A model generated the notes under the pieces. It searched no databases, was not told where the DNA came from, and worked only from the letters and a program-made list of their open reading frames with translations. The position numbers were made by a program, and so were the translations under genes. This document shows, in pieces, positions 16,454-59,923 of a stretch of 59,923 bases of DNA (the first letter of the stretch is position 1; every line of letters starts with the position of its first letter). The stretch is from Helicobacteraceae bacterium (lineage in GTDB: Bacteria > Campylobacterota > Campylobacteria > Campylobacterales > SZUA-545): assembly GCA_031286325.1 (NCBI GenBank), contig JAITUT010000042.1, forward strand, positions 1 to 59,923, in the 5' to 3' direction.

Positions 16454-17506
16454 TTATTCTATAAACCCGCCGCCTAAAAGTTTGTCGTTTTCGTAGAAAA
16501 CCGCCGCTTGTCCGCCAGCGATCGCAAACTCTGGATCGCGCAATACGATCTTCGCGCGATTTTCGCCTAATAACTGCGCTTTTGCGGGCTTTTTTTCATT
16601 TCGGTATCTAACTTTTACCTCAGTTTCAAAAACATCGTTCTGCGGCGTGAAAAATAAGTTTATATCTTTCACAAAAAATTCGCTTTGAAAAATGTTCTCT
16701 TTCGTAGTAACTACGATCTGATTTTTTTCGGGAATTATCTCTTTAACATACATAGCCTTTTTCGCGCCTTTTGCGTAAAATCCGCGCCTTTTGCCGATCG
16801 TGTAATTCATATAGCCTTTATGATCGCCGATCACATTTCCCTCCAAATCAAGCGTTTCGCCCAAAGCGTTGATCGGAAAATGGCGCGCCAAAATCTCGGT
16901 ATAGTCGTTTTCCACAAAGCAAATTTCGCTGCTCTCTTTGCGATCGGCGAGAAATTTTAACTCTGGTATGTTCGCGGCAATTGATTTAACATCTTTCTTA
17001 ACCATATTTCCAAGCGGAAAAATCAGCCGTTTTAACGCCTCTTTTTTAACATTAAACAAAAAGTAACTTTGATCTTTGCTTTTATCAAGCGATTCGTAGA
17101 AAAATTCGCCGTCATTTCGTATATAATGCCCTGTAGCGGCGAAATCAAATCCATTTGCGATCACGTAATCCAAAAACGCGCCGAATTTCAAATTCCGATT
17201 GCACAAAACGCACGGGTTCGGCGTGCGCCCCGCTTTATATTCGTTAATGAACGGCGTATAAACCCGCGCCAAAAACTCCTCGCGCTTGTCCAAAACGCGA
17301 AATTCAATGCCCAAAAACTCCGCCACGCGCGAAGCCGAAGCGATATTCGCCTCGTGCGAAGCGTCCCGATCGTGGAGCTTCATATAAGCTCCAGCAACCT
17401 CGTAGCCTTGCTCCATTAACAATTTGCACGACATTGACGAATCCACGCCGCCGCTCATTGCCACCAAAACTCTTTTCACTTTTTTCTCTTCCGCCATAGA
17501 TAACAC
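16454..17506 (-). CDS. mnmA: tRNA 2-thiouridylase MnmA
   Basis: A 350-residue enzyme that adenylates and thiolates U34 of tRNA-Lys, -Glu and -Gln. It shows the PP-loop AMSGGVDSS near residue 17, the first active-site cysteine in NPCVLCN, the second in SSEICFVE, and the tail AIAGGQAAVFYENDKLLGGG. A second Met at residue 4 (MAEEKK) could be the real start. It is divergent from the Rrf2-cysK pair. Confidence 0.95.
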   Translation of the reverse strand: MLSMAEEKKVKRVLVAMSGGVDSSMSCKLLMEQGYEVAGAYMKLHDRDASHEANIASASRVAEFLGIEFRVLDKREEFLARVYTPFINEYKAGRTPNPCVLCNRNLKFGAFLDYVIANGFDFAATGHYIRNDGEFFYESLDKSKDQSYFLFNVKKEALKRLIFPLGNMVKKDVKSIAANIPELKFLADRKESSEICFVENDYTEILARHFPINALGETLDLEGNVIGDHKGYMNYTIGKRRGFYAKGAKKAMYVKEIIPEKNQIVVTTKENIFQSEFFVKDINLFFTPQNDVFETEVKVRYRNEKKPAKAQLLGENRAKIVLRDPEFAIAGGQAAVFYENDKLLGGGFIE

Positions 17507-17538
17507 CTAGTAATTCAATTGATTTGCTAGCGTATTTT

Positions 17539-17553
17539 AAGCAAAGTTTGCTT
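17539..17553. promoter_or_regulatory. Perfect 7-1-7 palindrome ahead of the Rrf2 regulator gene
   Basis: AAGCAAA-G-TTTGCTT lies 46 bp upstream of the Rrf2 start and overlaps a -10-like TATACT (17553-17558) on the plus strand. It sits between the divergent mnmA and Rrf2 genes and is a plausible autoregulatory operator. It does not match the dyad found ahead of cysD, cysN and hcyS. Confidence 0.4.
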
Positions 17554-17599
17554 ATACTTCGTAAAAGGTGTTTGCCAATCAAACGCGGAAAGGATCAAA

Positions 17600-18010
17600 A
17601 TGGTGTGTATAACCTCAAAGGGCGCATATTCGCTCGCGGCAATGCTTTTTTTGACGCGGCAGGGTTGCCGCCTCGCGCAGATCAAAGAAATCGCCGAAGC
17701 CAGCCAAATACCGCAAAACTACCTAGAACTCCTGCTCACGCAACTCAAAAAAGCGGGGTTAGTAGAGAGCGTGCGCGGCACGAAAGGCGGCTACAAAATG
17801 GGAAAAAACGCGGAAAAAATTACTGTTTTAGAGGTTTTAAGGACGATGGAAAGCGAAATTTCATCGCCTGAAAAATACGGCGGATCGCCCGCGCTATTAG
17901 ACTTTTGGGGCGACGTAAATCGCCAAGTCGAGAGCATTTTGTCGGTCTCTTTGCAAGAGATCGCCGATCGCGACGAGTGCCTCGCGAACGCCGGAAACTA
18001 CGTTATATAA
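17600..18010 (+). CDS. Rrf2-family transcriptional regulator (CymR-like)
   Basis: A 136-residue winged-helix regulator: [50 protein letters not shown] is the Rrf2 DNA-binding domain with its recognition helix and GGY wing. It lacks the three closely spaced cysteines that hold the Fe-S cluster in IscR; its only cysteines are at residues 3, 23 and 128. It lies 10 bp ahead of cysK in one operon. That arrangement and the missing cluster resemble CymR, an Rrf2 repressor that senses cysteine status through CysK in Firmicutes. The CymR role is an inference from context. Confidence 0.82.
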
Positions 18011-18020
18011 AGGAAAAGCA

Positions 18021-18953
18021 ATGAAAATCGCTGAAAATGTCTCCGAACTCATAGGAAATACGCCGCTTGTGCGCCTCGCCAAAATCGCGGCGCAAGCGGG
18101 GGTGAAAGCCGATCTGCTCGGCAAAGCGGAGTTTATGAACCCGACCCATTCGGTCAAGGATCGCATAGGTTTTAATATGATCGAAAACGCGATCAAAGAC
18201 GGCAAAATCACGATCGGCAAGACTACGATCGTAGAGCCCACCAGCGGCAACACAGGAATCGCGCTGGCAAGCGTGAGCGCGGCGATGGGCATTGATTTAA
18301 TTCTCACGATGCCCGCTTCAATGAGTTTGGAGCGCAGGCAAATTTTAGCCGCGTTCGGCGCGAAACTTGAATTAACGCCGCCTGAACTCGGAATGAATGG
18401 CGCGGTCAAGCGCGCGGAGGAATTAGTCGCGCAAAACCCCGACTTTATCACTTTGCAACAATTTGAAAATCCCGCGAACCCCGAAATTCACCGCAGAACG
18501 ACCGCCGAAGAGATTTGGCGCGACACGGACGGCAATGTGGATATTTATGTCGCCGCGGTCGGCACGGGCGGCAGTTTAACGGGCGTGGGCGAGGTTTTGA
18601 GGGCGAAAAACCCCGCGATTAAAATCGTTGCCGTAGAGCCCGCCGCGTCTCCTGTTTTGAGCGGCGGCAAGCCTGGTCCGCACAAAATTCAAGGAATCGG
18701 AGCAGGTTTTGTACCGAAAGTCTTGAACACGCGACTCTTTGACGAGATCATTCAAGTTGACAACGAAGCGGCGATCGACACGGCGCGCGAGATCGCGAAA
18801 TTAGAGGGTTTGCTGGTCGGGATTTCCGCTGGCGCGAATGTCTATGCCGCGCTGGAAGTCGCAAAACGCCCAGAAAACGCGGGCAAGCGCGTAGTTACGA
18901 TCCTGTGCGATACGGGCGAACGCTATTTGACCGCCGGGTTGTTTAAGGCTTGA
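18021..18953 (+). CDS. cysK: Cysteine synthase (O-acetylserine sulfhydrylase)
   Basis: A 310-residue PLP enzyme forming cysteine from O-acetylserine and sulfide. The PLP lysine is residue 46 in [11 protein letters not shown], the substrate loop is TSGNTGIAL, the phosphate-binding loop is GTGGSLTG, and [11 protein letters not shown] and [12 protein letters not shown] close the fold. The length is standard. It follows the Rrf2 regulator by 10 bp. Together with the sulfate-reduction genes at 52.5-58.9 kb it provides one sulfide outlet. Confidence 0.96.
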
Positions 18954-48619: not shown

Positions 48620-49849
48620 TTATGCCGCATATGCTAAATTTATCGCAGTTATAGCATCGTCAAAATCGCCGTCCGCAATACAGTTAAACGCTTCATTGTC
48701 CAATCCAACAAAGAGCACATACATAAATTTCCTGAACTCGTAAATTTGCTCACGATTCAAATCAGAAAGCGTTTCTTTAATAACACTTGCTTTTGCGATA
48801 AGACAAATATGCTGATACGTAGCGTCAATTCGGTGGGTATTGCCATCTGGGTGGGCATAATTAAAATGTTGAGTAGGAGTAAGAGCAATTAAGTTTTCAC
48901 AATAGGCGGATATTTCTGGAAATTCTGATCCGGGGAAAATATGGTGAATGTTTGTAGCAAGATCGGAATTGTGCCGCTCGTCAAAAACTTCAGATTTACC
49001 GTCGCGGAACGAATCGTTGAAAGAGCGAACAAGTCTTTTCGCTTTTTGCGACATATACGAAATTAAACTGCTTGATAAGGATATATTTTCTTTTTCTGCA
49101 TATTGACGCCGCGTTAAATCTTTTGGTTTGTCCGCATAAATATCGCGGAAATTATTACGATTATACATCAGCATATCAAGGGTGATTTTATCTTTTGAGA
49201 GACGACCTTTTTCAGTTCCATATTTGCTTAATTGAAAAGCCAAAGGGTTTAAGACTTTTGTAAAAATTCTATTACACTCAAGCGATTTATTGATTTTAGT
49301 ATGCTTTATCGTAAAATCGGAAAACCCGTCTTTCATAGCGTAAAATGTAGCTTTTGTCTGTTTGTCAAAGAACTCGTCAAACAAATGCTTAATTCCCGAA
49401 TCGGACAATACCTTTGAAATATAAAGTTGCAAAAAAGTCAAGGCATTACGATCGCGAATAGCAAGATATTCCAAAATTTCGTTATCCCCGATAGAATAAA
49501 GGTTGCTGTTACCTTTTTTAGTTTTGATTAACACGCCTGCATACGCAAGCATTTCCATAGGTTGTTGAAAGAATTTATCATACTCGTTACGCGCCTTAGC
49601 CTCATTGGGGTTAGGTTTTTTGAATATCGCTTCAACATTTTCAACAGTATATTTGTTATACCAAATATCCCTTGAAGAAAATATTTTTTTGGGAACATCC
49701 TCAACGTAACAGACTATACAATCAGAAACAATCATCACAACATCAGCTGTGCATTTCTGGTCAATCCAACGAGCGTTTCCCGAAATACGAACGTCATAAT
49801 TACGTTGTGATAAAAAATTCTGAATATCTTCATTTTTTAGCCACTTCAT
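48620..49849 (-). CDS. HNH-type restriction endonuclease partner of the fused methyltransferase
   Basis: A 409-residue protein. N-terminal residues about 15-60 (NARWIDQKCTADVV) form a conserved-looking recognition block, the middle is helical, and the C-terminal part has an HNH-like site: NIHHIFPGSEFP, CENLIALTPTQHFNYAHPDG. It starts on the stop of the fused m5C/m6A methyltransferase (ATGA overlap), which strongly suggests it is the cognate restriction enzyme. HNH restriction enzymes of the Alw26I/Eco31I/Esp3I group pair with such modification activities, but I cannot confirm membership. Confidence 0.75.
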   Translation of the reverse strand: MKWLKNEDIQNFLSQRNYDVRISGNARWIDQKCTADVVMIVSDCIVCYVEDVPKKIFSSRDIWYNKYTVENVEAIFKKPNPNEAKARNEYDKFFQQPMEMLAYAGVLIKTKKGNSNLYSIGDNEILEYLAIRDRNALTFLQLYISKVLSDSGIKHLFDEFFDKQTKATFYAMKDGFSDFTIKHTKINKSLECNRIFTKVLNPLAFQLSKYGTEKGRLSKDKITLDMLMYNRNNFRDIYADKPKDLTRRQYAEKENISLSSSLISYMSQKAKRLVRSFNDSFRDGKSEVFDERHNSDLATNIHHIFPGSEFPEISAYCENLIALTPTQHFNYAHPDGNTHRIDATYQHICLIAKASVIKETLSDLNREQIYEFRKFMYVLFVGLDNEAFNCIADGDFDDAITAINLAYAA

Positions 49850-52380
49850 ACGTTTTCTTCCTTTCTTTCAATAAGCCGTCCGAAAAAGAACACCGAGCTC
49901 GAATCAATATTCAATGAACGGGTTTGACGATTACGAGCTGTGCGGTAAAATTCGCGATATTCAGTTGAAGAAAAAAACAGCAATTCATTTTTTTCAAGCG
50001 GCGGCTCTCCTTCTTTAAGTAACAAAATAGCGGCTGAACCGTTTACGAGAACGTCTTTTGGCTTGCGAATAACGCGAGGGTTATAGGTCATATTTGGCGT
50101 TAAATAAACAGTATCGTCATTGAAAAAACGATACACGGAAAGCGTTTTAGCTGTTTCTTGCGGAACATACGAATCGTAACCGCTAATACTGATAATTTTT
50201 GAGCCGCTATCGTCTATATTGCGAGATTTAATAACGCGAATGTCGCAAGAATTTTCAGTCATCAACGCGTTAGTAAGTTGACGATCGCGGAATACATTAA
50301 ATATATCAAACTTTAACTTTTGACATACGTTATCAAAAGCTTCATCTCTATAAATAATCCAGTAAGGAAAACGGCGGTCGCATATATAATTTTGCTTTAC
50401 AATACGGCGTTCGTTTTCAATTGTCGATATAACCGTAGTATTTGACGGCTTAGCTTTTGGGTTTACACAAACCGCAATAGTTTCAATAAGAACGCCGCCG
50501 AACCCTCTTTCCCCGAAGTCGACAATTGCGTCAACGCTGTGCTTAGAGAGGTAATTTCGTGTCGCGGCAAATTCTGGGGTATTCAATAAAAATTTTGGCA
50601 TTACCAAAGCAACATAATCGCCAACACTAAGCGCTTTCTCTAAAAAAAACGCAGACGTATTTGTGGCTGTATTATTTATTGAATTTGCCCTATATTGCTT
50701 TAATTTTTCTTTCTGTGTTGATTTCGAAAATGGTGGGTTGCCAACAACGAAATTGAATTTACCGTTGAAAGAATTTGATAAAAAATCTTCGCAAATATAC
50801 TCAATCGTTATATTAGCGGGTTTATCAATATGCTTAACAAGTTCTTTAAGTATTAAGAGCGCGTTATTATCAATATCCACAACCGTAATATTTACATTTT
50901 TCTTTTTTTCAAACAACTTTATGATGAAAGGCAGAAAATTACCCGCTCCTACGGACGGCTCAAGTATGCTAAGATTTTCGCCGATAATTTCGGGAATAAA
51001 TTTTATAATTTCGTTAATAAGAGATTTGTTTGTAAAATACGCTTCCTGTTCATTGCGTTTTGAATTAGCCAATTCAACAATTCGGCACAAACTTGAAAAA
51101 CCTAAATTCAGAGGATTTTGTTTTACATATTTTATAAGTTGTTTAACGTTTGTTAAATTCAAAAACGCGATTTCACTTTTAACCTCCGCATCGGTTAAAT
51201 AATGTTTATTTAGTGCTTTTTTTATATTTGTGGCAATGCCTTGAAAAATTTCAGTCGGCACGGCTTCGCCTAATGATTGGCGTATTTTAATTTCTTCTTT
51301 TTTAAGAAATTTGCGTTTGTCATTATCAGATAAATTATTTAATTTTGCAAAAGGAGTATCCGTCCACTTGAAGTCAAATGGCAGGGTCATCATAATCATA
51401 AGTTCGCGTATGCTGAATACTCGATCGTCGGTAGGGTGAACGGTATTTTGACTTGCTAACTGGTCGTTGCGGGTGTGAACACAAGGTCCGATTTTATTCC
51501 AAATTTGGCGGCGATATTTATCACCGTTTTTTTGCTGATTATAAACAACCTTACCGTTGATAATTTGGTGAGGAATACGGTTTTTATCTTTGTTTTCAAA
51601 GGCGGATTGTCCTTCTGTCAAAGCGGAAATCCATTTTCTCATATGTTGGGGGTAAGGGCGAAAGGAATGATAAATATCGCTCTCATCAATTTCACCAAAC
51701 GTGCTAAGAGACTTCATATCGCCAATGGCATCAAATAGCGTTACTTCAGGCTTGAATGACGGGAACAATTCAATTGGCGAGAAAAAATCTGTAAGGTCTC
51801 TGCGGACCGCAATTACAAGCGTTCGGGTTCTGCTTGAACATGCGCCATAATCTTTAAAATTCAAGACTTGTGAGTATACTGAATATTTAACGCCAAGATT
51901 TCTTTCAATAGCTTCGCCAATAGGACGCTCTATTCCGTCCGTGTCGGTACAAAGCGTTTTCATAAAAAGAGGCACATTCTCAAAGATAAAAATTTTTGGT
52001 TTAATATCTGAAATTATTTTAATTGATTCAATAATTAGTGAGTTACGAATAATTTCATTCGATGTTTTCTTGTGATTAGCTACCGACATTCCTTGACACG
52101 GTGGGGTAGCGACTACAACATCAATTTCTTTAAGATTTTCTTTTGACTTCCACATTGATATTTCATTAAAAAGTTTTTCTTTTATTGTGGGAACAGAAAC
52201 ATCTCCGAGTATATAGCCGCTTTCGTACTTGCACTTATGATTATATTTCTGCACAGCAAGGCGGCGAGCAACAAGTTCGTTCGTCGCAACACATTCAAAA
52301 TTTTCCAACTTGAAACCGTGGCACCCTACGCCGGCACCACTAAAAAGGCTTATATATGTTAAATAGGAGTTCGCTTTCAT
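49846..52380 (-). CDS. Fused cytosine-C5 and adenine-N6 DNA methyltransferase
   Basis: An 844-residue protein with two complete methyltransferases. Residues about 1-400 are C5-cytosine type: SLFSGAGVGCHGF (SAM), ATPPCQGMS with catalytic Cys 95, IFENVP, CSSRTRTLVIAVR, and a C-terminal FQGIATNIKKAL. From about 440 a gamma-class adenine enzyme follows: LEPSVGAGNFLPF, catalytic VVGNPPFSKS near 550, then a target-recognition tail. Two different base modifications fit an asymmetric (type IIS) site with one strand protected by each. It is AT-richer than its neighbours, suggesting acquisition. ATGA-coupled to the HNH nuclease gene. Confidence 0.88.
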   Translation of the reverse strand: MKANSYLTYISLFSGAGVGCHGFKLENFECVATNELVARRLAVQKYNHKCKYESGYILGDVSVPTIKEKLFNEISMWKSKENLKEIDVVVATPPCQGMSVANHKKTSNEIIRNSLIIESIKIISDIKPKIFIFENVPLFMKTLCTDTDGIERPIGEAIERNLGVKYSVYSQVLNFKDYGACSSRTRTLVIAVRRDLTDFFSPIELFPSFKPEVTLFDAIGDMKSLSTFGEIDESDIYHSFRPYPQHMRKWISALTEGQSAFENKDKNRIPHQIINGKVVYNQQKNGDKYRRQIWNKIGPCVHTRNDQLASQNTVHPTDDRVFSIRELMIMMTLPFDFKWTDTPFAKLNNLSDNDKRKFLKKEEIKIRQSLGEAVPTEIFQGIATNIKKALNKHYLTDAEVKSEIAFLNLTNVKQLIKYVKQNPLNLGFSSLCRIVELANSKRNEQEAYFTNKSLINEIIKFIPEIIGENLSILEPSVGAGNFLPFIIKLFEKKKNVNITVVDIDNNALLILKELVKHIDKPANITIEYICEDFLSNSFNGKFNFVVGNPPFSKSTQKEKLKQYRANSINNTATNTSAFFLEKALSVGDYVALVMPKFLLNTPEFAATRNYLSKHSVDAIVDFGERGFGGVLIETIAVCVNPKAKPSNTTVISTIENERRIVKQNYICDRRFPYWIIYRDEAFDNVCQKLKFDIFNVFRDRQLTNALMTENSCDIRVIKSRNIDDSGSKIISISGYDSYVPQETAKTLSVYRFFNDDTVYLTPNMTYNPRVIRKPKDVLVNGSAAILLLKEGEPPLEKNELLFFSSTEYREFYRTARNRQTRSLNIDSSSVFFFGRLIERKEENV

Positions 52381-52528: not shown

Positions 52529-54796
52529 TTATTTCTTGCGGATTCTTACTCGCCAAAAGTCGCCCTCGCGATCTGTTTTCTCGATCGTATGCCCTTCGGC
52601 TTTAACGGATTTCGGAACATTATCAATCGGCGCGCCGTCATCTAAAAGAATTTCAAGAATTTCGCCGCTTTTCATTTGCGATAAATCCATTTTGGTTTTC
52701 ACGAAATTCATCGGGCAGGCGACGCCTCTGTAATCTTTAAACTTAATTTCCTCAGTTTTCTCGACCCTGTTAGTCGCGTTAAACAAGGTTTGCGCCGCAT
52801 TAAACCGCAAAGTATTATCCATAGACCCGTAGAGGTCAATTACCGCCCGCGCCAACTCTTTTGCCCGCGCGTCAGCCGCGCCGCTTAGCAAGGATTCAAA
52901 GCGGCGATCGACCAAACCCGCGTCAATAAACGCCCGCTTAAACGCTACCAAAACGCCCGCTTCGTCTCGCGCCTCTTCGCCGCGCGCGACCAAGAGCATT
53001 CGCGCCGATAGCAAGCGGATTTGCGCGTAATCCTCGCCGCTCAAAGCCGCCAAAAGCGCCTTTTTATCAGCCTCTATGAGGTCGTACATTCCCGCGCTGC
53101 ACTCGCCCGCGCCGCGGTTAGCGGTTGAAAAAACCTCTTTCGCGCCGAAGTCGTAGTAAGGATTTTTGTCCTCCTCAAAGGCGGGAATTTCCGCATATTT
53201 CACCGCCAGATCGGCGATAAATTTCTCGCCGCCGTTATCAATCCAATCCGCAAATTCCGCGAAATCCGCCTTGATCGCTACCCAATACCCCAAAAGCTCG
53301 GCGCAAAATTCGGGCAATCTAAACGCGCCGATTTCGCCTATCTTTCGCGCGAACGCCGTGCTTTCGCCGCCAATTCGCGCCCCCGCTACGATGTTATACG
53401 CGGGATACGCTACGCCGCCCAAACGCGCGACCTTGCCGAAAAAGCCCAGATCGGCGGTCAAATGCCTGCCGCAACTATTCGGGCAGCCCGACATTCTGAT
53501 CTTAAAGCCCTGCAAAGCGTCCAAATCTACATTCGCCTTGACGAGCGCTTTCTCAACCGCCGCGATCGCGCCGCGCGGGACGGTAATGCCCAGCTGACAA
53601 GTCGCCGCCCCCGCGCAAACCACGCTATCGCCGATGATCGCCGGCTTTTCCGCGAGCGGCGAAATCTCTTTCGCGGCAGCCGCGATCACGTTTAATTCGG
53701 CGGCTGTTAAGCTGCGAAGATATAAATTCTGATCGCAGGCAAAGCGCAGGACATCGCGATCCTCCGCGATTTTTATCAAGAGTTCCGCGAGTTTTAACGC
53801 CGATTTTGCGGAAATATCGCCCAAAAATAACGGGACTTTGGCGCAAAAGCAACCCGCTTGACGCTCCGCGATCACATATCGCCTAAACCACAAATCGTTT
53901 GGCAAATTGCCGACGCGATCGGCGATCGCGGGTAATTTGGCGGAAAAATCAACATCAACTTCCCACCCCCCGCGCGATCTAACCTCCGCGATCTTCTCGA
54001 TCGCAAGAGTTTTGAACTCCTCAAAACCCAACTCCTCTACGAGAAATCTCAATCTCGCGTTGTGCTTATTTCGGCGGTTTCCGCGCTCGTTAAAGACCTC
54101 TTTGATCGCCTGCGCGTAAAGAAACGCCTCGTTCGCGGGGATAAAGTCGGCGAAGAGCCGACCAATTGCGCTTTTCGCCCCCATTCCCCCGCCGATAAAG
54201 ACCTTAAAGCCGCGATCCGCGCCGCGCAAAACCGCTATAAAACCAACATCCGCCAGAGCCGCATATCCGCGATCCGCGTCCGATCCGCTGAAAGTTATTT
54301 TGAATTTGCGCGGCAGGTTATACGAGTCTTTTTGATCGAACATCTTTTCAGTGAGAGCGTCGGCGTAGGGCGAGACGTCAAAAACTTCGTCCGCCGCGAT
54401 ACCAGCGAGCGGATCGGCTGTAATGTTCCGCGCTGTGTTGCCGCCGCCGCCTCTGCCCGTTAATCCCGCCTTATGCAAAGCGTCTAAAACCGCCGCCAAA
54501 TCGTCTATTTTTACATAGTGCAACTGCAATCCGCCGCGCGTAGTAACGTGCAAAACGGCGTTCGCGTAACGATCGGCTATGGTAGCAAGCGCGGCGAGTT
54601 GGCTTGGCGCAATAGAGCCGCCCGAAAGTTTCACGCGCACCATATAAGTATTTTTCTCGCGCTGCTCGTAAATTCCAAAGGGCACGCGGTAGGTTTTGAA
54701 AGCGTCGGCGTCTATTTTGCCGCCTTGAAACTCCGCGAAACGCGCCTTAAACGCCGCCAAATCCGCGCTCACGCTCTTAGTTAAACGATAACTCAT
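52529..54796 (-). CDS. sir: Siroheme sulfite reductase fused to a C-terminal TusA domain
   Basis: A 755-residue protein. The N-terminal two-thirds is a nitrite/sulfite reductase: ferredoxin-like half-domains (VTTRGGLQLHYV) and the siroheme/4Fe-4S cysteines in VVCAGAATCQLG and MSGCPNSCGRH. A helical linker follows, and residues about 685-755 form a TusA/SirA sulfur-carrier domain (GVACPMNFVKTK). It would reduce sulfite to sulfide and perhaps pass the sulfur onward as persulfide. It starts on the stop of hcyD (4-bp overlap) and is the last gene of hcyS-hcyF-hcyD-sir. In Wolinella a Sir in the same type of cluster feeds HcyS. Confidence 0.9.
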   Translation of the reverse strand: MSYRLTKSVSADLAAFKARFAEFQGGKIDADAFKTYRVPFGIYEQREKNTYMVRVKLSGGSIAPSQLAALATIADRYANAVLHVTTRGGLQLHYVKIDDLAAVLDALHKAGLTGRGGGGNTARNITADPLAGIAADEVFDVSPYADALTEKMFDQKDSYNLPRKFKITFSGSDADRGYAALADVGFIAVLRGADRGFKVFIGGGMGAKSAIGRLFADFIPANEAFLYAQAIKEVFNERGNRRNKHNARLRFLVEELGFEEFKTLAIEKIAEVRSRGGWEVDVDFSAKLPAIADRVGNLPNDLWFRRYVIAERQAGCFCAKVPLFLGDISAKSALKLAELLIKIAEDRDVLRFACDQNLYLRSLTAAELNVIAAAAKEISPLAEKPAIIGDSVVCAGAATCQLGITVPRGAIAAVEKALVKANVDLDALQGFKIRMSGCPNSCGRHLTADLGFFGKVARLGGVAYPAYNIVAGARIGGESTAFARKIGEIGAFRLPEFCAELLGYWVAIKADFAEFADWIDNGGEKFIADLAVKYAEIPAFEEDKNPYYDFGAKEVFSTANRGAGECSAGMYDLIEADKKALLAALSGEDYAQIRLLSARMLLVARGEEARDEAGVLVAFKRAFIDAGLVDRRFESLLSGAADARAKELARAVIDLYGSMDNTLRFNAAQTLFNATNRVEKTEEIKFKDYRGVACPMNFVKTKMDLSQMKSGEILEILLDDGAPIDNVPKSVKAEGHTIEKTDREGDFWRVRIRKK

Positions 54797-55203
54797 ACGA
54801 TCTCCTCATTTTCCGCCGCGCCGTTTTTAATGCGAAATGATTTCACTACAGGCTTCCCCTCCGCGATCGAGACGATCACATAACTGATGTTCGGATCGTA
54901 GGCGAGGCGAATATCCTCTTCGCTGGGGCGCGCGGGGGTTGCTGGGTGCGAGTGGTAGCAGGCGATAAGCTTCATTTTGTTTGCGATCGCGTCTTTGAAA
55001 GCGTTAAATTGCTCCTGCGGGTCAAAGGCGAAGTGCTCTTCGCTCTTGTCGGCGTTGCTCATTTGGTAGATTTTTTTGACCTCGCGAATTTCCGCCGCCG
55101 CGCCGCTAATTTCCCCCGCGAGGTAGCCGCACGCCTCAATCGGCGAATCTTTTTGCGCGTGGGCTACGATCGCGTCAATTATTTCGCGCGGGATTTTGAT
55201 CAC
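54793..55203 (-). CDS. hcyD: JAMM/MPN metalloprotease HcyD
   Basis: A 136-residue zinc protease of the JAB1/MPN family. The JAMM motif is complete: Glu 23 (PIEACGYL), His 84 and His 86 (CYHSHP), Ser 94 and Asp 97. In the Wolinella pathway HcyD trims the C-terminus of the carrier HcyS and later releases homocysteine from it. The start is the GTG at 55203, with GAGGTGAAAA ahead and a 4-bp GTGA overlap with hcyF; the in-frame upstream ATG lies well inside hcyF. Confidence 0.88.
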   Translation of the reverse strand: MIKIPREIIDAIVAHAQKDSPIEACGYLAGEISGAAAEIREVKKIYQMSNADKSEEHFAFDPQEQFNAFKDAIANKMKLIACYHSHPATPARPSEEDIRLAYDPNISYVIVSIAEGKPVVKSFRIKNGAAENEEIV

Positions 55204-56006
55204 TTTTTCACCTCGCAAATTTGTTGTTCGTAATCGGTTAAACTCGTAACGCCCGATCCGCCGCAAACTCTGCAATGCGGATTTTTCGCGAGTTTGATCT
55301 TGCGAAAGTTCATAGTTTTCGCGTCAAACGATAAAAGCGAATTTGTCAGCAGCTCGCCCGCGCCCGTGATAAATTTCAACGTTTCGGCGGCTTGGATCGC
55401 GCCCAACATTCCCGCGACCGCGCCCAAAATTCCCGCGCTAGAACAAGTAGGTACAGCTCCAGCGGGCGGCGGCGCGTTAAAGGCGCAGGCGTAACACGCG
55501 CTTTCGCGGGGTTTGATCGTCATCGTTTGTCCCGCGAAACGCAAAATCCCGCCGTGCGAATACGGCTTTTTCGCCAAAACGCAGGCGTCGTTTATCAGGA
55601 ATTTCGCCGCGAAATTATCCGTGCCGTCAATCACGAAATCATAAGGTTTCACGATCCGCAAAATGTTTTCCGCGCTCAAAAACTCTTGATAAACATTAAC
55701 TTTGATCGCGGGGTTTATCGCGAGCATTTTAGCTTTAGCGGATTCTACTTTCGGCGCGCCGACGTCGGGCGTCGCGTGGATAATTTGACGTTGCAAGTTG
55801 CTCAAATCCACCAGATCGCCGTCCGCGATCCCAATTTCGCCCACCCCCGCCGCCGCGAGATACAACGCGATCGGCGATCCGAGCCCGCCCGCGCCGATTA
55901 CGAGGACTTTGGCGTTTAGGATTTTTTCCTGTCCCTCAATGCCGACATCTTCTAAAATTATGTGGCGCGAGTAACGCTCTAACTCCGCGTCCGTCCATTC
56001 TCTCAT
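55200..56006 (-). CDS. hcyF: E1-like adenylating enzyme HcyF (MoeB/ThiF family)
   Basis: A 268-residue enzyme that activates the C-terminal glycine of a ubiquitin-like sulfur carrier. It shows LERYSRHIILEDVG, the nucleotide loop VIGAGGLGSPIALYLA, DLSNLQRQI, DGTDNFAAKF, the zinc pairs CYAC and CRVC, and a candidate catalytic Cys in VPTCSSAGILG. By itself it could be ThiF or MoeB. Its position between hcyS and hcyD, coupled to both by 4-bp overlaps, supports the HcyF role. Confidence 0.88.
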   Translation of the reverse strand: MREWTDAELERYSRHIILEDVGIEGQEKILNAKVLVIGAGGLGSPIALYLAAAGVGEIGIADGDLVDLSNLQRQIIHATPDVGAPKVESAKAKMLAINPAIKVNVYQEFLSAENILRIVKPYDFVIDGTDNFAAKFLINDACVLAKKPYSHGGILRFAGQTMTIKPRESACYACAFNAPPPAGAVPTCSSAGILGAVAGMLGAIQAAETLKFITGAGELLTNSLLSFDAKTMNFRKIKLAKNPHCRVCGGSGVTSLTDYEQQICEVKK

Positions 56007-56242
56007 TGCCCGCCTTTGGTTTTGGATCGCGCGCTTTGCCCGCCGCCCATAAAGTAGAGGAAATTCACTAAATCGCCTTCTTTTAGCGCGGCGCGATCGT
56101 ATTCCTCCCGCTTCAAAAAGTCGTCATTGACCTGCATAGAAACCATATCGGGCAACTCCACATTCTCTAATTTGAGCAACTCCGCCGCGCTCAGGCTCTC
56201 CTGATCGTATCTCTTCTCTTCGCCGTTTATTATCAGCCTCAC
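56003..56242 (-). CDS. hcyS: ThiS-like sulfur carrier HcyS with an extended C-terminal tail
   Basis: A 79-residue beta-grasp protein of the ThiS/MoaD type. The fold ends GDLVNFLYFMGGG (Gly 66-68), where ThiS proteins normally stop. Here 11 more residues follow (QSARSKTKGGQ), themselves ending GGQ. The Wolinella HcyS ends in a single Ala that HcyD removes. Here either the whole tail after the first glycines or only the last Gln would have to be cut before thiocarboxylation. GTG start with AAGGA ahead; ATGA overlap with hcyF. Confidence 0.85.
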   Translation of the reverse strand: MRLIINGEEKRYDQESLSAAELLKLENVELPDMVSMQVNDDFLKREEYDRAALKEGDLVNFLYFMGGGQSARSKTKGGQ

Positions 56243-56270: not shown

Positions 56271-56322
56271 ACTATACAGAAAAAAACCTTAAAAGTAAAG
56301 TATGTTGATTTAATTACTTGAC
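56271..56322 (-). promoter_or_regulatory. hcyS promoter with sulfur-regulon dyad (site 3)
   Basis: The dyad GTAAAGTA-N12-TACTTGAC occupies 56295-56322. On the minus strand its promoter-proximal arm supplies the -35 TTTACT (56299-56294). A 17-bp spacer and the -10 TATAGT (56276-56271) follow, putting the transcript start about 22 nt ahead of the GTG. The spacing is identical to that at cysN and cysD. Confidence 0.75.
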
Positions 56323-56372
56323 ATTTAATCCCTTGCGGGCGCGATCTTTACCGCCGCGCCGAATTTTGCGAC

Positions 56373-57758
56373 TCAAATCTGATACGTAAATCCGTCATCT
56401 TTGAATCTGTGCGGGAAGTGGCGACGCAGGAGCGCGAAAAGTTCGTCCTCAAAATTTGCCCGCGATTTTTCGGCTTCGCTCTCTTTTAAGACTTCCAGCA
56501 CGATCCCGCCGCCCGCCGCGTCATAGCCGTCAACGAGGACAAATCTGCCCAGATCGGCGTTTTCGTAAAACGCGCTCAAAGCTACAGGTTCCAAAAGCGA
56601 CAAGACCACCGAGCCGCACTCGTGTCGTTTGAGGCGGCTTTTGCCTGAAATTTCGGAGTTTTCCGCGCCTGCCGCGCCGCCCGATACGCTCTCGTCCAGC
56701 GTCCGCTCAATTTTTTCAAGCCGCGCCGAAACTTTCGCGCTCGCGATCTTAAGTAGGTAACTTTTGTTAAATTCCAGCGGATTTTGCCCAAGCCAAATCA
56801 CATTCGCGCGGATTTTTCGCGCGATCGACACGCGGGCGGCTTCGTCAGATCGCGTCATTACCTCGCCGCCGCGAACATAAATGTCTTCTTTTAGCGTGAA
56901 ACCTGCGGCTTGACCCGCGATCGCCGCTTCGCGAGGCGGCGCGTTCCAAGCCTCCACGCTCGCGATACGCGCCTCTTTTTCGCTCGGTAAAAAGCGTACG
57001 AGATCGCCCGTTTTCACGCGCCCGCTAGCGATCGTGCCAGCGTAAATCCTGCGATTATCCCCGCCTTTGCTAAACCTGTAAATATCCTGCAAGGGCATCG
57101 CGAAAAACGAATCCTCGTTGCTCGGCAAATTCTGAAAACTATCAAGCGCTTCTAAGACGCTCTGTCCGCGATACCATGGCGTTTGGGCGGAGAGCGTTAC
57201 GATATTGTCGCCCTCGCGCGCGCTTATCGGCACAAACGCCAGCGGTTTTACATTGAGCTCGGCAAGATATTTTTCGTAGCGCGATCTGACGTCGCGGAAG
57301 ATAGACTCCGAGTAACCCAGCGCGTCAAGTTTGTTGATCGCAACCACGACTTGCGAGACGCCAAGGAGCGAGAGCAAAAGCCCGTGCCGCTTGGAGTTTT
57401 CCGCCACGCCCTCGATCGCGTCTATCACTAAGATCGCCGCGACCGCCCTCGACGCGCCGCTGAGCATATTTCGCAGAAATTCTATGTGTCCCGGCGCGTC
57501 TATGATGACATATTCGCGCGCCGCGCTTTTGAAGAAAATTCGCGCGCTGTCGATCGTGATACCCTGCTTTTGCTCGTCTTCGAGGGCGTCAAGGAGCATT
57601 GAGTATTCAAAGACGCGCCCGTTTTTTTCGCACGAGGCTTTCACGCCGTCAAGTTTGCCCTGCGGCAATGAGTTTGTATCCGCCAACAAACGCCCGACAA
57701 GCGTGCTTTTGCCGTGATCAACGTGACCTGTTATGACTATGTTCATTCTTTCTTGCAT
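56373..57758 (-). CDS. cysN: Sulfate adenylyltransferase subunit 1 (GTPase)
   Basis: A 461-residue translation-factor-like GTPase that with CysD converts sulfate and ATP to adenosine 5'-phosphosulfate. The G motifs are [10 protein letters not shown] (residue 12), DAPGHIEF (canonical DTPGH) and [19 protein letters not shown] and [15 protein letters not shown] are typical of CysN. There is no fused APS kinase domain. The APS-reducing gene (cysH) is not in the window. It has its own promoter rather than following cysD directly. Confidence 0.94.
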
Positions 57759-57793
57759 TAAAACCCTTTATTTTTCGCGCCGATTTTCACGAG

Positions 57794-57845
57794 ATTATAG
57801 GCGGATTTTTCTTAAAAGTCAAGTAAGTTTATCTATTTACTCAAG
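57794..57845 (-). promoter_or_regulatory. cysN promoter with sulfur-regulon dyad (site 2)
   Basis: GTCAAGTA-N12-TACTCAAG occupies 57818-57845. On the minus strand the promoter-proximal arm gives -35 TTGACT (57822-57817), followed by a 17-bp spacer and a consensus -10 TATAAT (57799-57794). The distal arm is less perfect than at cysD and hcyS. Confidence 0.75.
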
Positions 57846-58020
57846 ATTAAATTATCAAAAGACGATCCAAAATCAATCCAAAATCATACGGGCGCGTATA
57901 ATAACCGCGCTATATGTTATGTAATGTTAAACCAACTTAAAGCAGATCGCCGAAACCTCTCGTATTTATTGCGCAAACCCGCGCCGCGCTTGATAATAGA
58001 CGTTTTCGCTCCTTGTAAAA

Positions 58021-58899
58021 TTACATATACCCGTCTTTCCGTAACGCTTCCAGCGTCCCGCCGCCGTCTTTATCTTGCGCCCTGCCGCTACGCTCCGCAA
58101 TATCTTTGAATTTGCCGCTTGTTAGCTCCGCGATGATTTCGGCGGGGTTTTTGGCGGCGGATTCGACTGGCGAAGTGCAAGGGTAACAGCCAAGCGAACG
58201 ATAACGTTTGCCCTCTCCTTGATCAAAATAAATCGGAATCACGGGGATATTTTCGCGCTCAACGTATTCCCAAATGTTGAGCTCCGTCCAATCAAGCAAC
58301 GGATGCACGCGCACGTGTGTTCCGGGCGCGAATTCAGTCTTATAGAGATTCCAAAGCTCGGGCGGCTGCAAACTCGCGTCCCACTCGCTCTTTTGATCGC
58401 GCGCCGAAAATACGCGCTCTTTGGATCGGCTGCCCTCCTCGTCGCTACGCACGCCTACGATCACGGCGTTGTAAGGTTCAGTCGAAGCCGCTTCGCTCCA
58501 AGCGTCTGTTTCGGGATCGTAAATCCGCCGCTCCAAAGCGCCGTCCAAAGTCTGCTTTAACGCGCTGCTTTTCAACTCTTTGCAGCAGCTCACGCGATCT
58601 AGTCCATTTACGAAAGTACGCCCCGCTTTCAACGCCTCTTTATTTTGCCCGACAACGAGGCGGAGTTTGAGTTCGCGCGCAACGCGATCGCGATAGGCGA
58701 TCATTTCAGGGATTTTGAACGCCGTGTCAATATGGATAAGTTCAAAGGGAATGTGCCCAAAAAACGCTTTTTTCGCCAGCCACAGCAAAACCGTGCTGTC
58801 TTTGCCGATTGACCACAACATTCCGATATTTTTGAAAGACCTGTAAGCCTCTCTGATAATAAAGACGCTTTGAGCCTCTAATTTGTCTAGCTTGTCCAT
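58021..58899 (-). CDS. cysD: Sulfate adenylyltransferase subunit 2
   Basis: A 292-residue PP-loop enzyme. It has the SIGKDST nucleotide loop near residue 31, [49 protein letters not shown] and the conserved C-terminal tail [24 protein letters not shown]-type end. It forms the ATP sulfurylase with CysN. It is separated from cysN by 262 bp that hold the cysN promoter; cysD is first on the minus strand of the sulfur block. Confidence 0.95.
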
Positions 58900-58919
58900 T
58901 TGCCGCCTTTTTTAGCGTA

Positions 58920-58971
58920 ACTATACATTAAGAAATCTTAAATGTCAAGTATCTCTATTAAATTACTTAAC
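58920..58971 (-). promoter_or_regulatory. cysD promoter with sulfur-regulon dyad (site 1)
   Basis: GTCAAGTA-N12-TACTTAAC occupies 58944-58971; the arms extend to 12 bp with one mismatch (58940-58975). On the minus strand the proximal arm contains a consensus -35 TTGACA (58948-58943), then a 17-bp spacer and -10 TATAGT (58925-58920). The transcript would start about 14 nt before the cysD ATG, leaving room for AAGGCGG. Confidence 0.78.
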
Positions 58972-59077: not shown

Positions 59078-59923
59078 ATGACAAAACCGCTAAATCAAAA
59101 CACAAGCGCGATAACGGTTAGACTACTCCATACCCTATTGACCCGCCGTCGGAATAGACCTCTAGTGAACGCGATAACGGTTAGATTACTCCATACCCTA
59201 TTGACCCGCCGTCGGAATAGACCTCTAGTGAACGCAATAACGGTTAGATTACTCCATACCCTATTAACGTCTTATTCAGCGTCGTCGCCGTTATACGCTA
59301 TAACAGCTAGACTACTTACCATATTGACGCTTTCATTGATCGCATTGTCATTTATACCGCAGATATCTCTTGCCAAAGCTCCCGACGCCGTAAACACCCA
59401 AGCCTTCTCGCCTAGTTTTGATTGCTCTAAATCCAAGATAAAAGTAGAGAAACTTATATGCGCCAACGAAGAGCTCTCAAGGCTTGATATGGAGTTGGCA
59501 AAGACGTATAGAGACGCGCTAAATATACGCGAGGAACAGTTGCAAATAGAAGATATATACGACGTTTTAGACATAAGGCGCTCGTTATACGAGTGTCTGT
59601 TTAACGACTGCAATCAAAGCTATAAGTTGCCCGACTCTATCAACGAATCAGAGACGCAAGCTCAAAAAGAGTGGATCAAGCGGAGAAATACCTGCAATAA
59701 CGAGGATTGCCTAAAAAACCATTATGAAACAAGAGTAAAAGCCTTAAACGCGAAAAACACCGCCTTTGTAAACCAACTGCTCAAATCCCAAAGAGAGGCA
59801 AAAGAGAAATACCAAAAGACAAACAGCGCGTTTAAGGCGTCTAAAATAATGGACGACAATAATACAGCCTCTATTATTAGCCATAAACCCAGCCTCTTAA
59901 CCGACGAGCAATACTCTAGCCTA
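59078..59923 (+). CDS. LprI-like secreted protein with repeated N-terminus, cut by window edge
   Basis: Starting at ATG 59078 (GGAGACC ahead) an open frame of 282 codons runs to the edge. Residues about 11-65 are two and a half copies of a 21-residue unit (AITVRLLHTLLTRRRNRPLVN). A related last unit then forms the true hydrophobic signal (LTILTLSLIALSFIPQISLA). From about residue 115 an LprI/DUF1311 domain follows: FDCSKSKIKVEKLICANEELSRLD and QKEWIKRRNTCNNEDCLKNHYE with paired cysteines. LprI-type proteins are periplasmic and some inhibit lysozyme. The C-terminus is missing. Confidence 0.75.
   Translation, partial: MTKPLNQNTSAITVRLLHTLLTRRRNRPLVNAITVRLLHTLLTRRRNRPLVNAITVRLLHTLLTSYSASSPLYAITARLLTILTLSLIALSFIPQISLAKAPDAVNTQAFSPSFDCSKSKIKVEKLICANEELSRLDMELAKTYRDALNIREEQLQIEDIYDVLDIRRSLYECLFNDCNQSYKLPDSINESETQAQKEWIKRRNTCNNEDCLKNHYETRVKALNAKNTAFVNQLLKSQREAKEKYQKTNSAFKASKIMDDNNTASIISHKPSLLTDEQYSSL
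59108..59266 (+). repeat. 63-bp tandem repeat, about 2.5 units, in frame
   Basis: Units at 59108-59170 and 59171-59233 differ by a single base or so (GTTAGACTACTCC versus GTTAGATTACTCC). A third, partial unit runs from 59234 to about 59266. The period is 21 codons, so copy-number change keeps the frame of the LprI-like gene. Confidence 0.9.

Follow-up and report, generated by a model that had tools for sequence, protein, structure and literature searches.

Dyad operators ahead of sulfur assimilation genes in a Campylobacterota genome and a CymR-like Rrf2 protein as their probable repressor

Introduction

Which regulator controls sulfur assimilation in the Campylobacterota, and at which site on the DNA? 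In enterobacteria the genes of this pathway are controlled by CysB, a member of the LysR family. A literature search found no earlier description of a sulfur assimilation master regulator in Campylobacterota, although this does not prove that none exists. In the window (the whole stretch of DNA analysed here, 59,923 nucleotides) a preliminary description had reported a shared dyad ahead of cysD, cysN and hcyS. It read the dyad as the operator of a sulfur regulon and left the regulator open.

The genes concerned lie on the minus strand. cysD (58021..58899) and cysN (56373..57758) are assigned by Pfam and NCBIfam to a sulfate adenylyltransferase subunit and the sulfate adenylyltransferase GTPase subunit. 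The third transcript encodes an hcyS-like ThiS-family sulfur carrier with a GTG start (56003..56242), an hcyD-like ThiF-family adenylyltransferase (55200..56006), a JAMM (Prok-JAB) protease (54793..55242) and a sulfite/nitrite reductase hemoprotein, sir, with a C-terminal TusA domain (52529..54796). Beyond sir, at 49846-52380, a single ORF of 844 amino acids appears by eye to join a C5-cytosine methyltransferase to an N6-adenine methyltransferase. At the other end, tandem copies of an approximately 60-bp unit, GATAACGGTTAGATTACTCCATACCCTATTGACCCGCCGTCGGAATAGACCTCTAGTGAAC, occupy 59100-59320, on the divergent side next to the promoter region of cysD and upstream of it.

Three dyads share one promoter geometry

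The dyads are found on the minus strand at 58944..58971 ahead of cysD, at 57818..57845 ahead of cysN and at 56295..56322 ahead of hcyS-hcyD-JAMM-sir, exactly where they had been placed, and all three have the reported 12-bp spacer. The motif GTCAAGTA-N12-TACTTGAC holds as a consensus and not as a literal sequence, because all three dyads are imperfect. The cysD and hcyS sites each carry one mismatch to it, and the cysN site carries three, which fall in the outer arm and leave the 20-bp core intact. The promoter geometry, in which the proximal arm overlaps the -35 element and a 17-bp spacer leads to the -10 element, is exact at each promoter on the minus strand. For cysD the right arm contains the -35 element, TTGACA (58948-58943), and the -10 element is TATAGT (58925-58920). 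The corresponding elements are TTGACT (57822-57817) and TATAAT (57799-57794) for cysN, and TTTACT (56299-56294) and TATAGT (56276-56271) for hcyS. Assuming a transcript start about 7 nt past the -10 element, the centre of the cysD dyad sits about 44 bp upstream of the start, as previously estimated.

Chance would supply 0.09 such dyads in the window, and in 100 shuffles we saw at most one and never three. With both strands counted, the pattern TTGAC-N18-TATANT occurs four times in 109 kb of the genome, and three of these occurrences belong to the sulfur promoters described here. The three matches therefore exceed chance, as had been claimed, but they are not fully independent of each other, because sister genomes hold most of the same genes as one operon. 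The cysD, cysN and hcyS promoters may descend from a single ancestral promoter. The evidence from other genomes, given below, is independent of promoter copying within this one.

The operator marks a sulfur regulon across the genome

The source genome comprises 2.05 Mb and is 98% complete, and we scanned it with pattern searches. The 28-bp pattern added three sulfur sites on contig C44, ahead of the sulfate-binding protein gene sbp, ahead of cysW and ahead of cysA, which is followed by cysH. A search for the 20-bp core AGTAAnTnnATnnAnTTACT that tolerated no more than a single mismatch recovered eight places genome-wide, and all eight lie ahead of sulfur genes: cysD, cysN, hcyS-sir, sbp, cysW, cysA-cysH, metY (L345) and rrf2-cysK. 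With two mismatches allowed five further core sites appear, one of which is a perfect palindrome at a second cysK gene, cysK2. The idea of one shared operator defining a sulfur regulon is thus strongly supported, and with eight near-exact core sites plus cysK2 the regulon is wider than first described. The preliminary description had expected a genome scan to reveal sites ahead of cysH, metY, sulfate transporters or a regulator gene; all four kinds are present.

In most sister genomes, which are Helicobacteraceae MAGs, these genes form one operon, sbp-cysU-cysW-cysA-cysH-(cysD-cysN)-hcyS-hcyD-JAMM-sir. In the source genome the sulfate operon is broken up, and the pieces each have their own promoter copy. 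A second sulfite/nitrite reductase gene, which has no TusA domain, lies ahead of sbp (L009:5855-7609). The sister sbp promoters carry ATACTTGAC-N-TTTAAG at the -35 position. They keep TACTTGAC-N-TTTAAG but have lost most of the left arm, which means that the dyad in its strict form is not conserved at these promoters. When the family was searched with GTCAAGTA-N12-TACTTGAC, most of the matches were noise, since conservation does not reach the outer left arm. We therefore rejected the idea that a strictly symmetric dyad of 28 bp is what is conserved; the core AGTAAnTCnATnGAnTTACT is the better unit of search.

The eighth core site is a probable autoregulatory operator ahead of rrf2-cysK, AGTAATTCAATTGATTTGCT, on the plus strand at 17509..17528 (p = 0.005 versus shuffles). 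It is imperfect, with one mismatch to the core that places TGCT where TACT is expected, and it precedes a -10 element TATACT at 17553-17558 on the same strand. An mnmA-like tRNA 2-thiouridylase gene (16454-17506) is divergent from rrf2-cysK, as it is in most sister genomes, and the operator between them could therefore also affect this gene. The same region holds a perfect 17-bp palindrome, TAAGCAAAGTTTGCTTA, at 17538-17554, which overlaps the -10 element of rrf2-cysK and is distinct from the sulfur operator. In front of their rrf2 genes, sister genomes conserve a TTAAGC...GCTTA version of this second palindrome.

A CymR-like Rrf2 protein is encoded beside cysK

The genome encodes two Rrf2 proteins, and the one in the window is the candidate regulator. 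Its gene (17600..18010, plus strand) encodes 136 amino acids ending in ...NYVI and is separated by 10 bp from cysK (18021..18953, plus strand), a cysteine synthase A over the TIGR01139 cut-off and the proposed co-sensor. The protein exceeds the cut-offs of PF02082 and TIGR00738, which describe the Rrf2-family winged helix-turn-helix. On the NCBIfam CymR equivalog NF047409 it scores 77.8 bits against a curated cut-off of 195, so we call it CymR-like and not CymR. Its best solved relative by sequence is B. subtilis CymR (2y75, E 9e-17), and comparison of the predicted fold (mean pLDDT 85, with low confidence in the C-terminal tail) again placed CymR 2y75 at the top, with IscR close behind in second place.

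Two better-known regulators of bacterial sulfur or Fe-S metabolism were considered and rejected. The half-site ATACTTGAC resembles the left part of the type 1 box bound by IscR. Unlike IscR, the window Rrf2 lacks the Cys triad that binds [2Fe-2S], with no conserved Cys in an alignment of 14 proteins; the half-sites of the dyad face the opposite way; and the targets belong to sulfur assimilation and not to Fe-S assembly. The missing triad and the inverted half-sites rule out an IscR-type reading. CysB is excluded because the genome contains no LysR HTH domain (PF00126, no matches, against 13 of 14 control genomes positive); the operator is also unlike the LysR T-N11-A site near -65.

The likeness to CymR of Bacillus subtilis and Staphylococcus aureus lies in the protein, the gene linkage, the tail and the targets. 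Both have the Rrf2 fold, a C-terminal Ile tail and no Fe-S cysteines. The linkage to cysK matches that of CAC2236-CAC2235 in Clostridium acetobutylicum (PMC3828012), and the shared targets include cysK, cysH, cysD-cysN and sulfonate genes. There are also clear differences. The window Rrf2 is about 33% identical to CymR and scores below the curated cut-off, and its host belongs to the Campylobacterota and not to the Firmicutes. The gene is usually found in an operon with metY and cysK, and the operator is embedded in the -35 element with a strict 17-bp spacer. The question of the regulator, left open before, thus acquires a candidate within the window itself. We think it probable that the dyads are operators of this CymR-like Rrf2 repressor, with CysK as its helper; the grounds for pairing this protein with the site are linkage in cis, co-occurrence, the precedent within its family and the lack of a CysB.

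The operator and rrf2 are linked across the order

Throughout the genus and family rrf2 and cysK stay paired. More distant named relatives are Sulfurospirillum, Arcobacteraceae, Sulfurimonas, Sulfuricurvum and Hydrogenimonas. In the order as a whole, a relative of the window Rrf2 occurs in 95 of 200 genomes (E<=1e-8). The gene contexts are metY-rrf2-cysK, rrf2-metY and rrf2-(cysK)-DUF2061-cysH-cysD-cysN-sir. In each of 83 genomes we searched as much as 2.4 kb of the DNA preceding the Rrf2 gene with a weight matrix built from only the six sites of the source genome, against dinucleotide shuffles. Of the 83, 42 have a site ahead of the rrf2 operon at p<=0.05 and 28 at p<=0.01, and the best match typically lies about 80 bp ahead of metY. 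Counting the pattern by genome across the order proved too noisy, and genomes with and without this Rrf2 were compared by position-specific tests. Among 70 genomes outside the family, 41 have [AT]TACTTGAC at the head of their rrf2 operon, while the reversed-sequence control gave 0 of 70; a 17-bp spacer leads to a good -10 element in 38 of the 41. The exact word is missing at the tested place in the other 29 Rrf2-bearing genomes. Ahead of cysK in genomes without this Rrf2, the word was found in none of 22 scored upstream regions. The linkage of the site to rrf2 across the order is, like the location of the sites at sulfur genes and the geometry of their promoters, a direct result of these computations. 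The other targets are once more sulfur genes: DUF2061-cysH-cysDN, the alkanesulfonate monooxygenase gene ssuD, a monooxygenase gene of the NtaA/DmoA type and a gene with weak similarity to sulfide:quinone reductase.

Could the sequence simply be a strong promoter, a conserved -35 element and flank that was duplicated when the operon split and that holds no specific operator? In its favour, the -35 hexamer forms the right arm, the promoters of cysW and hcyS are closely alike, as are those of cysA and sbp, and sister genomes hold most of these genes in a single operon. However, in a comparison that used one site per genus, the conservation extends well upstream of the -35 element across genera, with A at -16 and -7 and T at -10, -6 and -1 as counted from TACTTGAC, and pairing across the dyad is highest at the register originally described (0.50, versus 0.25-0.42 elsewhere). 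The palindrome at cysK2 lies away from any -35 element, and the sequence is confined to sulfur genes. We therefore regard this explanation as very improbable. Chance, or a plain -35 box, is ruled out by the location of the motif, by the reversed-sequence control and by the genomes that lack Rrf2.

A second possibility is that the dyad belongs to a different regulator, with rrf2-cysK as one of its targets and Rrf2 serving some other role. The genome does contain the second Rrf2 protein (on C27) and other regulators, and the linkage between site and rrf2 operon could reflect no more than metY and cysK being sulfur genes. Against this, the site is also found ahead of rrf2 where neither metY nor cysK is the first gene, and none of the 22 scored genomes without this Rrf2 has it ahead of cysK. 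The second Rrf2 gene is not linked to sulfur genes, and the family has its precedent in CymR. A different regulator is accordingly unlikely, although less so than the promoter explanation, and the order-wide pattern is most likely a sulfur regulon with the CymR-like repressor as its controller.

If true, this would place a CymR-like circuit with a defined operator in a large order including Sulfurospirillum, Arcobacteraceae and Sulfurimonas. Roughly half of the genomes sampled would be predicted to have such a sulfur regulon, and the prediction is directly testable in culturable strains.

Repression is the favoured mode of action

The preliminary description allowed for an activator touching the -35 element or a repressor blocking it. 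In most promoters the operator covers the -35 element. In several genomes of other families, ahead of DUF2061-cysH, it lies between the -35 and -10 elements, and at cysK2 the apparent promoter has the palindrome downstream of it, an arrangement that suggests repression. The site is thus not fixed at -44, and because its position varies over near-consensus promoters a repressor is favoured and an activator disfavoured.

Some Rrf2 proteins, IscR among them, can activate, and the centre of the dyad is constant at -44 in most promoters, with strict spacing. Rrf2 might then bind the dyad under sulfur limitation as an activator in contact with RNA polymerase at -35. Yet -35 and -10 elements so near to consensus should need no activator, and the sites at cysK2 and DUF2061-cysH disfavour a fixed activator position. 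CymR itself is a repressor (PMC3828012). Activation by Rrf2 therefore seems to us a poor prospect, somewhat below that of a different regulator.

We propose that, when cysteine is plentiful, the Rrf2 repressor would occupy AGTAAnTCnATnGAnTTACT, aided by CysK docked on its Tyr-x-Ile tail, and would cover the -35 element, or the start-site region at cysK2, of otherwise near-consensus promoters. When sulfur runs short O-acetylserine would accumulate, CysK would let go and repression would lift. The genes then switched on would be those for sulfate uptake (sbp, cysU, cysW, cysA), those that activate and reduce sulfate (cysD, cysN, cysH, sir), and with them metY, cysK and the set of sulfur-carrier genes that begins with hcyS. 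Binding of Rrf2 at the site, repression, and tuning by CysK and O-acetylserine are the most likely reading of the sites and of the family precedent.

A C-terminal isoleucine suggests CysK as sensor

Partners of CysK, including CysE, CdiA and CymR, share a C-terminal Ile that enters the CysK active site (PMC12895370). In B. subtilis CysK holds CymR on the DNA and O-acetylserine dissociates the pair (PMC3828012, PMC4961446). We observed a C-terminal Ile in 82 of 83 of these Rrf2 regulators and Tyr-x-Ile in 75 of 83. Among Rrf2 relatives unlinked to cysK the corresponding counts are 8 of 16 and 1 of 16. IscR-like Rrf2 relatives in five Arcobacteraceae-like genomes (G092, G022, G040, G115 and G133; L243-L247) end in ...EEFVGGLGI, which resembles a CysK-docking tail, yet their genes are not beside cysK.

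CysE shows the opposite trend. Outside the closest relatives, all 21 complete cysE genes (one further gene, cut by a contig end, was left out) encode a protein without the C-terminal Ile. The residue is kept in an EpsC-type CysE, the form present in the window's genus and in one further genome (G003), and in this genus CysE could compete for CysK. By analogy with Bacillus, we propose that CysK acts as the cysteine-status sensor of the Rrf2 repressor, which would suggest that the sensing by CysK and repressor known from Bacillus is far more widespread. It would also offer a reason for the missing CysK-binding tail of CysE in most of these genomes. The broadest form of the proposal is that in many Campylobacterota a distinct CymR-type repressor is the master sulfur regulator, that CysK docking has switched from CysE to this repressor, and that CysK reports cysteine status to promoters whose -35 element is built into the operator, in this genome including that of an encapsulin operon. 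We consider the case for it evenly balanced.

A candidate site at a cysK2-encapsulin operon

The perfect palindrome ahead of cysK2, AGTAATCCTATTGGATTACT, lies just downstream of the apparent cysK2 promoter (TTGACA ... TATATG). cysK2 is followed by a family 2A encapsulin, a cysteine desulfurase cargo and, further on, cysE (L259 960-4324, contig C44 of the source genome, G000); shell and cargo both exceed their curated cut-offs. No strong operator was found at the same place in the encapsulin operons of sister genomes, and we therefore state the encapsulin as a target for this genome only. In Synechococcus elongatus, sulfur starvation induces SrpI, which is also a family 2A encapsulin (PMC8049743). 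The cysK2 operon likewise encodes a family 2A shell and a cysteine desulfurase cargo; unlike the SrpI system, it has a candidate sulfur-regulon operator at its promoter. In the sister genomes the genes are arranged as metY-metY-cysK-JAMM-ThiF-encapsulin-cargo-cysE.
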